Shown: in pieces, positions 3,344 through 56,560 of the stretch
Numbering within the stretch: position 1 is the stretch's first letter
Layout of the letters: each line of letters starts with the position of its first letter
DNA from: Streptomyces sp. ICC1
GTDB lineage: Bacteria > Actinomycetota > Actinomycetes > Streptomycetales > Streptomycetaceae
Length of the DNA: 64,000 nt
NCBI RefSeq assembly: GCF_003287935.1
Contig: NZ_CP030287.1
Coordinates: 4,368,267 to 4,432,266, forward strand
Direction of reading: 5' to 3'
Made by a program: the position numbers and the translations under genes
Notes under the pieces: generated by a model
Seen by the model: the letters and a program-made list of their open reading frames with translations, nothing else
Told to the model about the DNA's origin: nothing
Databases searched by the model: none

Positions 3344-3491
3344 TTGAGTGCCGATCCTGGCAGAGGTGCACCCCTCGGCCAAGTGATTCCGTTGTTGCCT
3401 TTTGATTACGCGACGGAATCGGTCGACCATGTGTCGAGGCGCGCCCAAAAACCCGTACGAAGTGTCCGTGGCTCCTGCGAGACTCGCGTGC

Positions 3492-4040
3492 ATGGAGATG
3501 ATCGAGGAACTGATCGGGCAGGTCAGCCGGGGTGAGCGGGTGAAGTACCTGCCGTTCTGGGGACACCGTCCGCGGCCCGACGGGACGCTCGGCCCGAGCT
3601 GCCTCAGCCAGTGGTGGCCGTCCGTGTTCACCGTGGGTGACGTGCGGTACGCCACCGCCGAACACTGGATGATGGCCGGAAAGGCCCGCCTGTTCGAAGA
3701 TCCGGAGGCGGAGCGCGCGGCGCTGGAAGCCAGGAGTCCTGCGGCCGCGAAGAAGGCCGGGCGGCTGGTGCGCGGCTTCGACGACGCGGTGTGGGAGCGG
3801 GAGCGGTTCGCGCTGGTCGTGGAGGGCAGCGTGCACAAGTTCGGCTCCGACCCGGCGCTGAAGTCCTATCTGCTCTCCACCGGCAAGCGGGTGCTCGTCG
3901 AGGCCAGTCCGATGGACCGGATCTGGGGCATCGGGCTCGCGGCCGACGACGAGCGGGCCCTGGACCCGGCGCGCTGGCGGGGGCTGAACCTGCTCGGCTT
4001 CGCCCTGATGGAGGCACGGGAGCAACTGCGCGCCGGGTAG
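3492..4040 (+). CDS. NADAR family protein (YbiA-like, DUF1768)
   Basis: About 182 residues, matching the compact NADAR fold. Recognisable signatures are the early YLPFWGH segment, the SQWWPS and YATAEHWMMAGKARLF region (about residues 40-75), and the C-terminal DRIWGIGLAADD and WRGLNLLG segments. Members act as N-glycosidases on riboflavin-pathway intermediates or remove ADP-ribose from modified guanine, as NADAR partners of DarT toxins do. No toxin gene is adjacent, so the exact reaction here is unknown. The open frame extends upstream to 3402, but that extension is poorly conserved-looking, and ATG 3492 (or ATG 3498) is the likelier start. The gene directly precedes the Y RNA/Ro60 locus; whether the link is functional is unknown. 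Confidence 0.85.
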   Translation: MEMIEELIGQVSRGERVKYLPFWGHRPRPDGTLGPSCLSQWWPSVFTVGDVRYATAEHWMMAGKARLFEDPEAERAALEARSPAAAKKAGRLVRGFDDAVWERERFALVVEGSVHKFGSDPALKSYLLSTGKRVLVEASPMDRIWGIGLAADDERALDPARWRGLNLLGFALMEAREQLRAG

Positions 4041-4098
4041 GGGCGGCGGTGCGTTAATTCGATCGCGGCCGCCGGGGAGGGCGGCTAGCGTGATCCTC

Positions 4099-4232
4099 GT
4101 CCAGGTGCGAAGGCGAGACCTACTTCGACTCATAATCGGGCGGCCGCGGGTTCGAGTCCCGTCACCGGCTTCGGGCCGGTGTAGCTCAGCTGGTAGAGCA
4201 CCTTGTGGTTTCGCCGAATCCGACCTCTGGAC
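4099..4232 (+). ncRNA. Y RNA-like module 1 carrying a circularly permuted tRNA-like domain
   Basis: A closing stem (GTCC 4099-4102 with GGAC 4229-4232; AGGT 4103-4106 with ACCT 4223-4226), an internal loop, and a 9-bp stem 4112-4120/4207-4215 form a Y-RNA-like Ro-binding stem. Inside is a permuted tRNA. Its parts in order are: anticodon stem 4124-4128/4136-4140 around loop CTCATAA (CAT at 4131-4133); variable loop 4141-4145; T-arm 4146-4162 with loop TTCGAGT; 7-bp acceptor stem 4163-4169/4175-4181 capped by TTCGG; TA at positions 8-9; D-arm 4184-4199 with loop AGCTGGTA; and A26 at 4200. Bacterial YrlA-type Y RNAs beside rsr genes are known tRNA mimics. The adjacent Ro60 gene supports the call. 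Transcription and exact ends are not shown. Confidence 0.82.
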
Positions 4233-4246
4233 ACCTACGTCACGCA

Positions 4247-4316
4247 CCTCCCGGTGCGCATGGCTGCGGCTACTTCTTGCAGAAATCACGCCGCCGCCGC
4301 TTCTGATCTCGGGAGG
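4247..4316 (+). ncRNA. Y RNA-like module 2, short form without tRNA-like domain
   Basis: CCTCCCG (4247-4253) pairs with CGGGAGG (4310-4316). CACGC (4241-4245) can extend the stem with GCGTG (4320-4324). An internal loop separates this from an inner stem GGC-T-GCGGC (4262-4270) with GCCGC-C-GCC (4290-4298). The tip is a small hairpin TTCT-TGC-AGAA (4274-4284). The 5' strand repeats the GGTGCGCA and CGGCTACTTC elements of modules 1 and 3, and the 3' strand repeats GATCTCGGG. It is therefore the same Ro-binding stem with the tRNA-like domain replaced by a small hairpin. It may be a separate RNA or part of one long leader. Its closing strand 4311-4316 can alternatively pair with 4473-4478. Confidence 0.65.
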
Positions 4317-4320
4317 CACG

Positions 4321-4467
4321 CGTGTGGAACGCCCGGTGCGCAGGCAGCGGCTACTTCCGGATCAACGGGTTGCGGGTTCGAGTCCCGCCCGGCTCCGGCC
4401 GGTAGCTCAATCGGATAGAGCAGTCGACACAGTCCGCCGCCGACTTCGATCTCGGGCGTTCCACACG
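4321..4467 (+). ncRNA. Y RNA-like module 3 with reduced permuted tRNA-like domain
   Basis: A perfect 15-bp closing stem pairs CGTGTGGAACGCCCG (4321-4335) with 4453-4467, and can be lengthened by GGGAGGC 4311-4317 with GCCTCCC 4472-4478. Inner stem GGC-A-GCGG 4343-4350 pairs with 4434-4441. The tRNA-like part has T-arm 4372-4388 (loop TTCGAGT), an acceptor-like stem of only 5 bp (4389-4393/4398-4402) closed by TCCG, and D-arm 4405-4421 (loop AATCGGATA). The anticodon-like arm is degenerate: 4 bp at 4356-4359/4366-4369 with a 6-nt loop. It shares GGTGCGCA, CGGCTACTTC and GATCTCGGG with module 2. Less tRNA-like than module 1, but the same permuted order. Confidence 0.78.
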
Positions 4468-4475
4468 TCACGCCT

Positions 4476-4501
4476 CCCCCCGTTCCACTGAATTCGGGGG
4501 G
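4476..4501 (+). promoter_or_regulatory. Hairpin sequestering the Shine-Dalgarno of the Ro60 gene
   Basis: CCCCCCG (4476-4482) pairs with CGGGGGG (4495-4501), leaving a 12-nt loop. The G-run is the only credible ribosome-binding site for ATG 4508 (6-nt spacing), so the hairpin would block translation. The 5' C-run overlaps GCCTCCC (4472-4478), which can instead pair with GGGAGGC (4311-4317) in the extended stem of Y module 3. The two pairings compete, suggesting a translational switch. This is read from complementarity only. Confidence 0.5.
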
Positions 4502-4507
4502 ATTCAC

Positions 4508-6130
4508 ATGGCTCGTTTCAACCTGCGCCCGTCCAAGGCGGCCCCGGCCGCCGCTGTGGCGCCGCCCACCTCGCCCGTCACCTCGACCGGCGCCCGGGCC
4601 CGCAACCACCACGGCAGCCGCGGCTTCGTCCGCGACCCGCGTTCCGAGCTGTTCCTGCTCGCCGTCGCCAACTTCGTGACGCAGCGGACCACTTACGAGG
4701 ACGGCGGGGACCGCGACGACCGCTTCGCCGCGCTCGTGCGCGAGCTCGCCGTGGAGGACCCCGCGTGGACGGCCGGCCTGCTCGGCTGGCTGCGCCGCGA
4801 CGGCGGCATGCGTACGGCCTCGCTCGTCGGCGCCGCCGAGTACGTCAAGGCGCGGCTCGACGCCGCGGCGACCGGGGGTCCGTCGAACCGGCAGGTCGTG
4901 GACTCCGTGCTGCTGCGCGCGGACGAGCCCGGCGAGCTGCTCGCCTACTGGACCGCGACGTACGGGCGGGCCGTGCCCAAGCCCGTCAAGCGCGGGATCG
5001 CCGACGCGGTGCGCCGCCTCTACGGCGAGACCTCCCTCCTGAAGTACGACACCGCGTCCGCCCGGCGGGGGTACCGGTTCGGTGACGTCCTCAACCTCGT
5101 GCACGCCTCGCCCGACCCGGCCAAGCCCTGGCAGGGCGAGCTGTTCCGCCACGCCCTCGACCGCCGGCACCACCCGCAGGACGCCGAGGTCCCGGCGGGC
5201 AGCCGCACGCTGCTCGCGCACCGGGCCCTGATGGAGCTGCCCGTGGCCGAGCGCCGGGCCGTGGTCACCGCCGCGGACGGCGCCGAGCGGCTCGCCGCGG
5301 CGGGCATGACGTGGGAGACCCTCGCGGGCTGGCTGCAGGGGCCGATGGACGCGGCCGCCTGGGAGGCGGTCATCCCGTCCATGGGCGCGATGGCGCTGCT
5401 GCGCAACCTGCGCAACTTCGACCAGGCCGGAGTCTCGGACGAGGTCGCCGCGCGGGTCGCGGCGAAGGTCTCCGACCCGGAGACCGTCGCCCGGGCCCGG
5501 CAGTTCCCCTTCCGCTACCTGGCCGCCTATCAGCACGCGCCCTCGCTGCGCTGGGCGTACCCGCTGGAGCGGGCGCTCGGGCACTCGCTGGGCAACGTGC
5601 CGGCGCTGCCCGGCCGGACGCTGATCCTCGTGGACCGCTCGGGGTCGATGTGGTCACCGCTGTCGGACCGCTCGCAGCTGAACCGGGCGGACGCGGCGGC
5701 CGTCTTCGGCACGGCGCTGGCGCTGCGCGCCGAGCACGCGGACCTGGTGCAGTTCGGCACCGCCAGCAAGGCGGTCGCCTACGGCCCGGGCGAGTCGGTG
5801 CTCAAGGTGCTCGAGCGGTTCGGGGACCTCGGCGGCACCAACACGGCGGAGGCCGTGCGCGCGCACTACGAGGGGCACGACCGGGTGCTGATCGTCACCG
5901 ACGAGCAGGCCACGTACTCCTCCGGCGGGGACCCGACCGCGCTCGTGCCGGACACCGTCCCGGTGTACACGTGGAACCTGGCCGGATACCGGGTCGGCCA
6001 CGCGCCCTCCGGGTCCGCGAACCGGCACACCTTCGGCGGTCTCACCGACGCCGCCTTCCGCATGGTGTCCCTGATCGAGGACGGCCGGGACGCCGCGTGG
6101 CCGTGGGAGGCCGCGGACGCGCGGGCCTGA
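4508..6130 (+). CDS. rsr: Ro60/TROVE domain RNA-binding protein (Rsr-like)
   Basis: Bacterial orthologue of the Ro60 autoantigen, 540 residues, the usual length. The TROVE domain is an alpha-helical repeat ring (about residues 25-360, beginning at GSRGFVRDPRSELFLLAVANF) that binds single-stranded 3' ends of misfolded RNA through its hole and Y RNA on its outer surface. The C-terminal von Willebrand A domain has an intact MIDAS-type motif DRSGSMW (about residues 376-382) and GGTNTAEA and VTDEQA segments. In Deinococcus and Salmonella, Rsr with Y RNA acts in rRNA maturation and RNA turnover under stress, in part with PNPase. Three Y RNA-like modules lie immediately upstream. RtcA/RtcB, the usual neighbours in some bacteria, are absent here. 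The GGGGGG ribosome-binding site lies in a hairpin. A strong terminator follows. Confidence 0.93.
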   Translation: MARFNLRPSKAAPAAAVAPPTSPVTSTGARARNHHGSRGFVRDPRSELFLLAVANFVTQRTTYEDGGDRDDRFAALVRELAVEDPAWTAGLLGWLRRDGGMRTASLVGAAEYVKARLDAAATGGPSNRQVVDSVLLRADEPGELLAYWTATYGRAVPKPVKRGIADAVRRLYGETSLLKYDTASARRGYRFGDVLNLVHASPDPAKPWQGELFRHALDRRHHPQDAEVPAGSRTLLAHRALMELPVAERRAVVTAADGAERLAAAGMTWETLAGWLQGPMDAAAWEAVIPSMGAMALLRNLRNFDQAGVSDEVAARVAAKVSDPETVARARQFPFRYLAAYQHAPSLRWAYPLERALGHSLGNVPALPGRTLILVDRSGSMWSPLSDRSQLNRADAAAVFGTALALRAEHADLVQFGTASKAVAYGPGESVLKVLERFGDLGGTNTAEAVRAHYEGHDRVLIVTDEQATYSSGGDPTALVPDTVPVYTWNLAGYRVGHAPSGSANRHTFGGLTDAAFRMVSLIEDGRDAAWPWEAADARA

Positions 6131-56436: not shown

Positions 56437-56501
56437 CACTTCGTCTCCCGGGGCTCCGCCCCGGACCCCGCGCATCGAACACGGGAGGGGCCCGAGACGG
56501 C

Positions 56502-56538
56502 CGGAAGGCCCGGACCCCCATGGGGTCCGGGCCTTCCG
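56502..56538. terminator. 17-bp bidirectional terminator
   Basis: CGGAAGGCCCGGACCCC (56502-56518) pairs with 56522-56538 with a 3-nt loop between the convergent HExxH and kgd genes. Confidence 0.85.
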
Positions 56539-56560
56539 CTCTTCGGGCCGAGCGCGGCGG

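Follow-up and report, generated by a model that had tools for sequence, protein, structure and literature searches.

Known Y RNAs act in trans, and YrlB of Salmonella is without a tRNA part. That YrlA is circularly permuted has been published (PMC11472068), and its mimicry of a tRNA is known as well: a review describes a resemblance to the D, T and acceptor arms only (PMC8394870). YrlA has also been reported as a substrate of DusA and TruB (PMC8394870), and in Deinococcus a Y RNA guides the effector PNPase to the Ro60 orthologue (PMC8394870, PMC7790460). Here, we describe an interval of Streptomyces sp. ICC1 DNA, within a window of 64,000 nucleotides, that holds three tandem Y RNA-like modules (M1, M2 and M3) directly ahead of a Ro60 gene, rsr. 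Judged from sequence comparison, this interval is probably the source of three Y RNAs that serve the Ro60 made from the next gene.

The array and its modules

The features of the locus are as follows, with positions counted from the start of the window.

4086-4091, + strand: -10-like hexamer TAGCGT, starting 12 nt before M1, from sequence
4098-4466, + strand: array M1-M2-M3, directly upstream of rsr
4098-4233, + strand: M1, Y RNA-like, permuted tRNA including anticodon arm (M1 model, 145.7 bits)
4099-4104, + strand: M1 closing stem, 5' strand GTCCAG, pairing with 4227-4232
4124-4140, + strand: M1 anticodon arm, TTCGA-CTCATAA-TCGGG, with loop CUCAUAA at 4129-4135
4141-4145, + strand: M1 variable loop, 5 nt, between anticodon arm and T arm
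4146-4162, + strand: M1 T arm, from sequence and covariation alignment
4163-4181, + strand: M1 acceptor stem, 7 bp, capped by a short loop
4184-4199, + strand: M1 D arm, best match tRNA-His
4227-4232, + strand: M1 closing stem, 3' strand CTGGAC, 6 bp with 4099-4104
4247-4316, + strand: M2, short, Y RNA-like, without tRNA part, no YrlA match
4322-4466, + strand: M3, Y RNA-like, permuted tRNA opened at the anticodon loop (YrlA, 58.4 bits)
4362-4366, + strand: M3 anticodon stem, tRNA 3' strand TCAAC, pairing with 4423-4427
4372-4388, + strand: M3 T arm, from sequence
4389-4402, + strand: M3 acceptor stem, 5 bp, UCCG loop, from sequence
4405-4421, + strand: M3 D arm, from sequence
4508-6130, + strand: rsr, TROVE/Ro60, 540 aa (Pfam TROVE 51.6 bits; PDB 9kop, E 6e-28)

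An earlier note on this DNA placed GGTGCG at 4104, 4253 and 4335, each followed by CTACTTC, and GACCT or GATCT at 4222, 4305 and 4448, and all of these motifs are where it put them. It gave the closing stems as 7-15 bp, which holds for M2 (CCTCCCG/CGGGAGG, 7 bp) and M3 (GTGTGGAACGCCCG/CGGGCGTTCCACAC, 14 bp, extendable) and is one pair too many for M1 (6 bp). Its division into two tRNA mimics and one module without a mimic is borne out by the T, acceptor and D arms, which sit in permuted order on the Y stem in M1 and M3 and are absent from M2; what it did not notice is that M1 has an anticodon arm, that M3 changes its tRNA type between species and that solo copies exist elsewhere, all described below. 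In the stretch from TACTTC to the T arm, M1 forms a 5-bp stem that closes a 7-nt loop, CAU occupying the anticodon position (4131-4133), and then a tRNA-like 5-nt variable loop. M1 would be a whole tRNA mimic, opened between the D arm and the anticodon arm and closed at the acceptor end, a proposal that belongs to an explanation in which, taken as a whole, we have considerable confidence. In M3 the opening lies at the anticodon loop; in the window copy a single A-C mismatch interrupts the anticodon stem, and tRNA-Lys is the best match by a small margin.

A search of 571 bases with the Rfam YrlA model (RF02553) gave 58.4 bits for M3 (E 1e-12), 39.4 bits for M1 (E 3.3e-7) and no match to M2. Since neither reaches the gathering score of 69 bits, we call M1 and M3 YrlA-like rather than members of RF02553; indeed, the score alone proves little, because the same model reaches 44.5 bits across a tandem pair of ordinary tRNA genes in this genome. 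A covariance model made from 40 M1s, the window copy among them, matched only M1 (145.7 bits) and M3 (73.5 bits, 2.2e-16) in the 64-kb window at E<=1. Single-sequence folding compared with shuffles gave modest values for M1 (z -1.7) and M2 (z -1.9) and a clear one for M3 (z -4.0), and at the M1 arm it draws a 6-nt loop in the window, while the RNAalifold consensus gives a 7-nt loop. Within the array interval ARAGORN called no tRNA, all 77 RF00005 hits in the genome lie elsewhere, and neither tRNA-like module is a normal-order cloverleaf with free acceptor ends, the acceptor being capped by a loop. Elsewhere in the window ARAGORN called a 95-nt tRNA-His(atg) on the reverse strand (56458-56552), which is absent from the 77 Rfam tRNA hits and is probably a false call.

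The TROVE gene is the only one found in a scan of the 9.03-Mb genome. Its product resembles the TROVE protein of solved structure 9kop (E 6e-28), shares up to 92% identity with named Streptomyces relatives and received no family name from NCBIfam. Upstream of the array lies a gene for a NADAR/riboflavin-intermediate N-glycosidase (3402-4040), which we considered as a functional partner and set aside: only 33 of 210 loci have it, these being the nearest relatives by Ro60, in a set where 100 of the loci hold just ~750 nt upstream. A GAATTC-GGGG-GAATTC-type element, imperfect in the window, covers the rsr ribosome-binding region at 4490-4505; a loose pattern recovers it from 138 of the 166 unique 40-nt regions compared in Streptomyces, and it is possibly a control element.

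Covariation, layout and promoter placement in Streptomyces

Among 392 Streptomyces genomes drawn evenly across the genus, 217 had a Ro60 match, 192 of them at E <1e-90. Loci were read one each from 122 of these genomes (100 in order of score and 22 others), leaving aside some 70 genomes with a more divergent Ro60; pooled with a second set, the 80 best named loci, they gave 185 unique upstream regions. Modules were recognised by a structural parse that asks for a paired closing stem, GTGCG, TACTTC and GATCT with mismatches tolerated. It found at least one module in 183 of the 185 regions, with 0/185 in reverse complements, 1/185 in gene starts and 3/185 in shuffled regions; together with the YrlA matches, this upholds the earlier claim of Y RNA-like modules beside the Ro60 gene.

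Alignment of 40 diverse M1s to a set structure left 97.5% of cells paired, falling to 33-47% when the structure was slid out of register. Double changes occurred at 14 pairs, giving 51 double-change cells against 7.9 in shuffled alignments, a number reached by 0 of 500 shuffles. For M2, 94.1% of cells were paired and 22 double-change cells compared with 8.7; these sit in the second helix, the closing stem being too constant to contribute. A conserved base-paired stem is thus present, with closing stems that vary little and a second helix that covaries. The earlier note had argued for compensatory pairing from the three copies of one locus and had named a lack of covariation across related species as grounds for giving the idea up; the counts above are that comparison, and the idea stands. 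They also bear on the proposal that the modules are functionless decayed or duplicated tRNA genes, for which one could cite M3 parts that closely match host tRNAs in some species and the ability of tandem tRNAs to score with YrlA. Permuted order, conserved Y stems, compensatory changes and the presence of a module at 121/122 Ro60 genes all speak against it; we take covariation and permuted order to rule it out, and give it a vanishingly small chance.

The layout tRNA-like/short/tRNA-like, as in the window, was found in 94 of the 185 unique upstream regions and in 59 of the 122 genomes of the genus draw. The triple array, which had been thought unusual, is the commonest layout among the Streptomyces loci read. 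Other regions held short/tRNA-like (44), tRNA-like/short (20) or two tRNA-like modules (14), and rarely a short module alone (6), a tRNA-like module alone (5) or none (2). By the same parse, a module adjoins the Ro60 gene in 121 of the 122 loci of the genus draw. We inspected six loci with two tRNA-like modules: four carry a miniature M2, one an intact M2 (L184), so that the parse overlooked at least one such module, and one a mostly lost M2. The miniatures (L221, L247, L225 and L086) lie between M1 and M3 and consist of a closing stem and the GUGCG/GAUCU core, helix 2 and UACUUC being gone, which suggests that the base alone may be kept for some reason, for example processing.

The earlier note had also proposed a covariance-model search over Streptomyces genomes. 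The Rfam YrlA model was run on the locus, as above, and the 40-M1 model across the genus. At E <1e-13 the latter hits 154 of the 192 genomes whose Ro60 match is strong, 3 of the 25 whose match is weak and 3 of the 175 that lack a match, in counts where the model derives partly from the same genomes and a hit may be an M3 or a solo module. Tandem tRNA genes set a background near 4e-11 for this model.

In 177 of 183 regions (shuffled mean 25.8, max 45) the 32 nt ahead of the first module include a TANNNT hexamer, which later modules have ahead of them in 6 of 266 cases (shuffled mean 51.1), counts that pool all layouts and are compared with base shuffles. Because a -10 precedes the first module and rarely the later ones, M1-M2-M3 is likely to be one transcript. 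The median spacer between modules is 15 nt, TTTT occurs in 2 of 266 intermodule spacers, and the last module ends a median of 54 nt before the rsr start codon. One promoter and 15-nt spacers would fit a common precursor, whether or not it serves as the multi-Ro60 scaffold suggested in the earlier note, and the division of labour that the note also suggested would be compatible with the conserved order of the modules. The same arrangement could instead mark a cis-acting rsr leader, to which Ro60 or tRNA-reading enzymes bind and so control translation, no free Y RNAs being needed. The single -10, the 15-nt spacers with TTTT in 2/266, the median of 54 nt between the last module and the start codon, and the GAATTC-GGGG-GAATTC-type element over the ribosome-binding region in 138/166 unique regions all agree with such a leader. 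Against it stand modules that carry a separate -10 and around which ~4 kb yielded no TROVE gene, the varying number and order of modules, and the trans action of known Y RNAs, and we consider a leader unlikely, preferring an array of Y RNAs.

Anticodon arms and tRNA types within and beyond Streptomyces

The M1 anticodon arm is widely kept in the genus. Among 119 unique M1s (145 rows), 110 have all five pairs, 6 have four and 3 have lost the arm, and the geometry of the hairpin appears in at most 3 of 119 at any of 24 other M1 offsets. In the 110 fully paired arms C32, U33 and A38 are invariant, U36 is present in 105 and A37 in 95, and A34 occurs once; the anticodons are CAU (42), GAU (26), CUU (18), GUU (9) and others (15). 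Under stricter geometric rules, 112 of the 119 unique M1s and 2 of the 143 unique M3s still show the arm, the two M3s being well paired and from divergent species. When M1 3' strands are re-dealt among the sequences, a mean of 76.6 of 119 (max 86) still make five pairs; within Streptomyces covariation rests on pairs 30-40 and 31-39, because the two outer U-G pairs hardly vary. Loops identical to a host tRNA loop number 92 of 110 against a column-shuffled mean of 88.6 (171 of 5000 shuffles reach it), and as this is only slightly above the shuffles, selection of particular anticodons is not established. Compared with its own genome's tRNAs, M1 has tRNA-His as its closest match in 39 of 56 cases, in a comparison where margins are frequently small. 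On a Ro60 tree the M1 anticodons (126 rows) require at least 57 changes (shuffled mean 69.8, min 64).

The tRNA type of M3 differs among species and may be Lys/Arg-like, Leu-like or initiator-Met-like. The 54 M3s scored against their own genome's tRNAs returned many isotypes as best match, often by small margins. In the commonest class, named GCTC, at least four of five anticodon-stem pairs form in 88 of 92 M3s (shuffled mean 47.5, max 57), with 6 of 143 M3s in all not measurable; in the initiator-Met-like class, 12 of 150 rows, they form in 11 of the 11 measured. Leu-like M3s (n=34) have 6-21 nt before the T stem in a freer search. Placed on the Ro60 tree, the three classes (150 rows) cannot be explained by fewer than 31 changes (mean 42.9 and minimum 38 after shuffling), the tree being a FastTree of 187 unique proteins in which weak branches and locus transfer can inflate change counts. 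The clearest switch separates L046 and L053, whose Ro60 proteins are 97.3% identical: the T arm and acceptor of their M3s are identical, and the D arm, anticodon stem and variable region have been exchanged.

A class-wide even draw gave Ro60 matches (E<=1e-20) in 51 of 394 genomes, 22 of them Streptomyces. At least one module carries the arm at 9 of 28 non-Streptomyces chromosomal loci and none does at the other 19. All nine lie in one actinobacterial family (f19; 7 genera, 14 of the 28 loci); the arm is absent from all 14 non-Streptomyces chromosomal loci outside that family, and from 8 further sister-family loci, one of which covers just 119 nt upstream. Outside chromosomes, a Ro60 match is present in 84 phage records. 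The Y-module pattern, with 1-5 matches each, occurs at every one of the 13 actinophage Ro60 loci examined and at 3 of 4 plasmid loci, and 8 of the 13 (some of them close relatives) and 1 of the 4 have the arm; the carriers are Streptomyces and Gordonia phages and a Rhodococcus plasmid. Compensation in the arm and T arm amounts to 27 double-change cells against 4.7 shuffled in 34 rows, and to 31 against 8.0 in 14 rows. The distinct arms collected, Streptomyces included, number 48, and as pairing and U33 were required their pairing is partly by construction; A38, which was not a selection criterion, occurs in 46. Non-Streptomyces anticodons are not confined to those reading ANN and include CUC, GUC, UCC and others.

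Phage copies lie within tRNA gene clusters, and some have been annotated as tRNAs. The tRNA-Arg(tct) of VanLee (L284:2129-2200), the tRNA-Ser(gct) of Alone3 (L280:2190-2263) and the tRNA-Arg(cct) of GiJojo (L282:2194-2268), the last of which did not pass the arm test, carry the Y motif and TACTTC in the 5' portion, and we regard all three as most likely Y RNAs. The tRNA-Pro(tgg) of phage Frankenweenie (L343:1176-1266), spanning GGAGCG..TACTTC and a T arm, is perhaps another.

Strong M1-model matches away from the main Ro60 locus exist among the matches listed. In 11 of 13 selected off-locus regions there is no Ro60 match within ~4 kb, so that these solo copies do not adjoin a Ro60/TROVE gene as the window array does (rsr at 4508). 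By a looser test that requires U33, all 11 Ro60-less regions have the arm, and 9 have TANNNT upstream; one of them, L355, is a second array. The other ten solo armed genes (L345-L351, L353, L354 and L356) stand near position 4000 of their regions, 9 of 10 with TANNNT upstream, often TACGGT, and their predicted neighbours showed no similarity between loci at E 1e-8. Loops equal to a host tRNA loop make up 7 of 11 in a list of ten of the solo regions (L355 excluded) plus L383, against a column-shuffled mean of 2.3 (1 of 5000 shuffles reaches 7). In five genomes the M1 model has a hit and Pfam TROVE finds nothing at E<=1, although a weak protein match does exist in G148, one of the five, and among the five hits two are armless and one has a poor arm. 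Given the solo copies and the TROVE-less genomes with hits, the RNA may not always need Ro60.

A further proposal is that armed Y RNAs serve as bait or decoy, the targets being anticodon nucleases or enzymes that modify the anticodon loop, with Ro60 only stabilising them. The changing identities would then reflect a contest with such enzymes, as the varied anticodons and the at least 31 changes of M3 class on the Ro60 tree could be read, and the phage copies stand inside tRNA gene clusters. Cleavage of tRNA occurs in S. coelicolor, as cited in PMC8628891; phage tRNAs have been argued to evade anticodon nucleases (PMC10264068), and uncut YrlA has been proposed as a competitive inhibitor of an anticodon nuclease (PMC7790460). 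True host loops are, on the other hand, without strong excess in Streptomyces M1, the arm is missing from M2 and nearly all M3s, and the class changes are read from a FastTree with weak branches. We regard this proposal as possible but rather doubtful.

Proposed mechanism and comparison with known Y RNAs

If the array is an array of Y RNAs, as we favour, a promoter with its -10 at 4086 would, from its placement, transcribe M1-M2-M3 and probably rsr as one RNA. Each module is predicted to fold into a Y stem composed of a closing stem, the GUGCG/GAUCU internal loop, a second helix and UACUUC. Conservation and the known Y RNAs suggest this stem as the putative Ro60-binding handle, on which three loads would be carried: a plain loop in M2, a tRNA opened at the anticodon loop in M3, like known YrlA, and in M1 a whole tRNA with closed acceptor end and anticodon arm. 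By analogy with PNPase in Deinococcus, the tRNA part may be an effector module that brings a tRNA-binding partner to Ro60. The M1 arm would add a putative dock for readers of the anticodon loop, such as modification enzymes and anticodon nucleases; its most likely use is as bait or decoy for such enzymes, a speculative idea that we hold with little confidence. It is equally tentative that armed Y RNAs form a distinct class of decoys or baits for anticodon-loop enzymes, with Ro60 as their keeper where present, and that this class takes in the complete permuted mimics of Ro60 arrays, phage tRNA clusters and solo genes, a reading we would not yet call probable.

An armed M1 beside an armless M3 is a natural construct pair for probing the function of the tRNA-like part, and comparing the two could single out enzymes whose binding, modification or cleavage is confined to M1. 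The solo and phage copies hint at roles beyond the known uses of Y RNAs, and some phage tRNA annotations may in fact be Y RNAs. In the literature searched, which is partial in coverage, so that prior publication is possible, we found no report of an anticodon-armed Y RNA or of Streptomyces Y RNAs, nor of a unit joining armed, YrlA-like and short Y RNAs, nor of a changing tRNA type or solo Y RNA copies.

Among described systems, YrlA of Salmonella (PDB 6CU1; RF02553) shares the Y stem, the permuted D, T and acceptor arms and the linkage to rsr, and M3 aligns to its Rfam model from the first through the last position. M1 differs from YrlA in its 17-nt anticodon arm, where the Rfam alignment needs a 15-nt insertion, and M1 and M3 differ from it in sharing what is probably a single transcript unit with a short Y RNA-like module. 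The Salmonella rsr-yrlBA-rtcBA operon likewise holds more than one Y RNA with rsr (PMC7790460), whereas in Streptomyces the Y RNAs precede rsr and three are commonest. The RYPER (Rsr-Y RNA-PNPase) system of Deinococcus resembles the present locus in combining a Ro60 orthologue with a Y RNA, the latter being putative here. Finally, the nuclease-evading tRNAs described for phages (PMC10264068) are, like the phage modules, anticodon-loop RNAs in phage tRNA clusters; they are ordinary tRNAs, whereas each module presents its tRNA in permuted form on a Y stem and has a Ro60 gene next to it.
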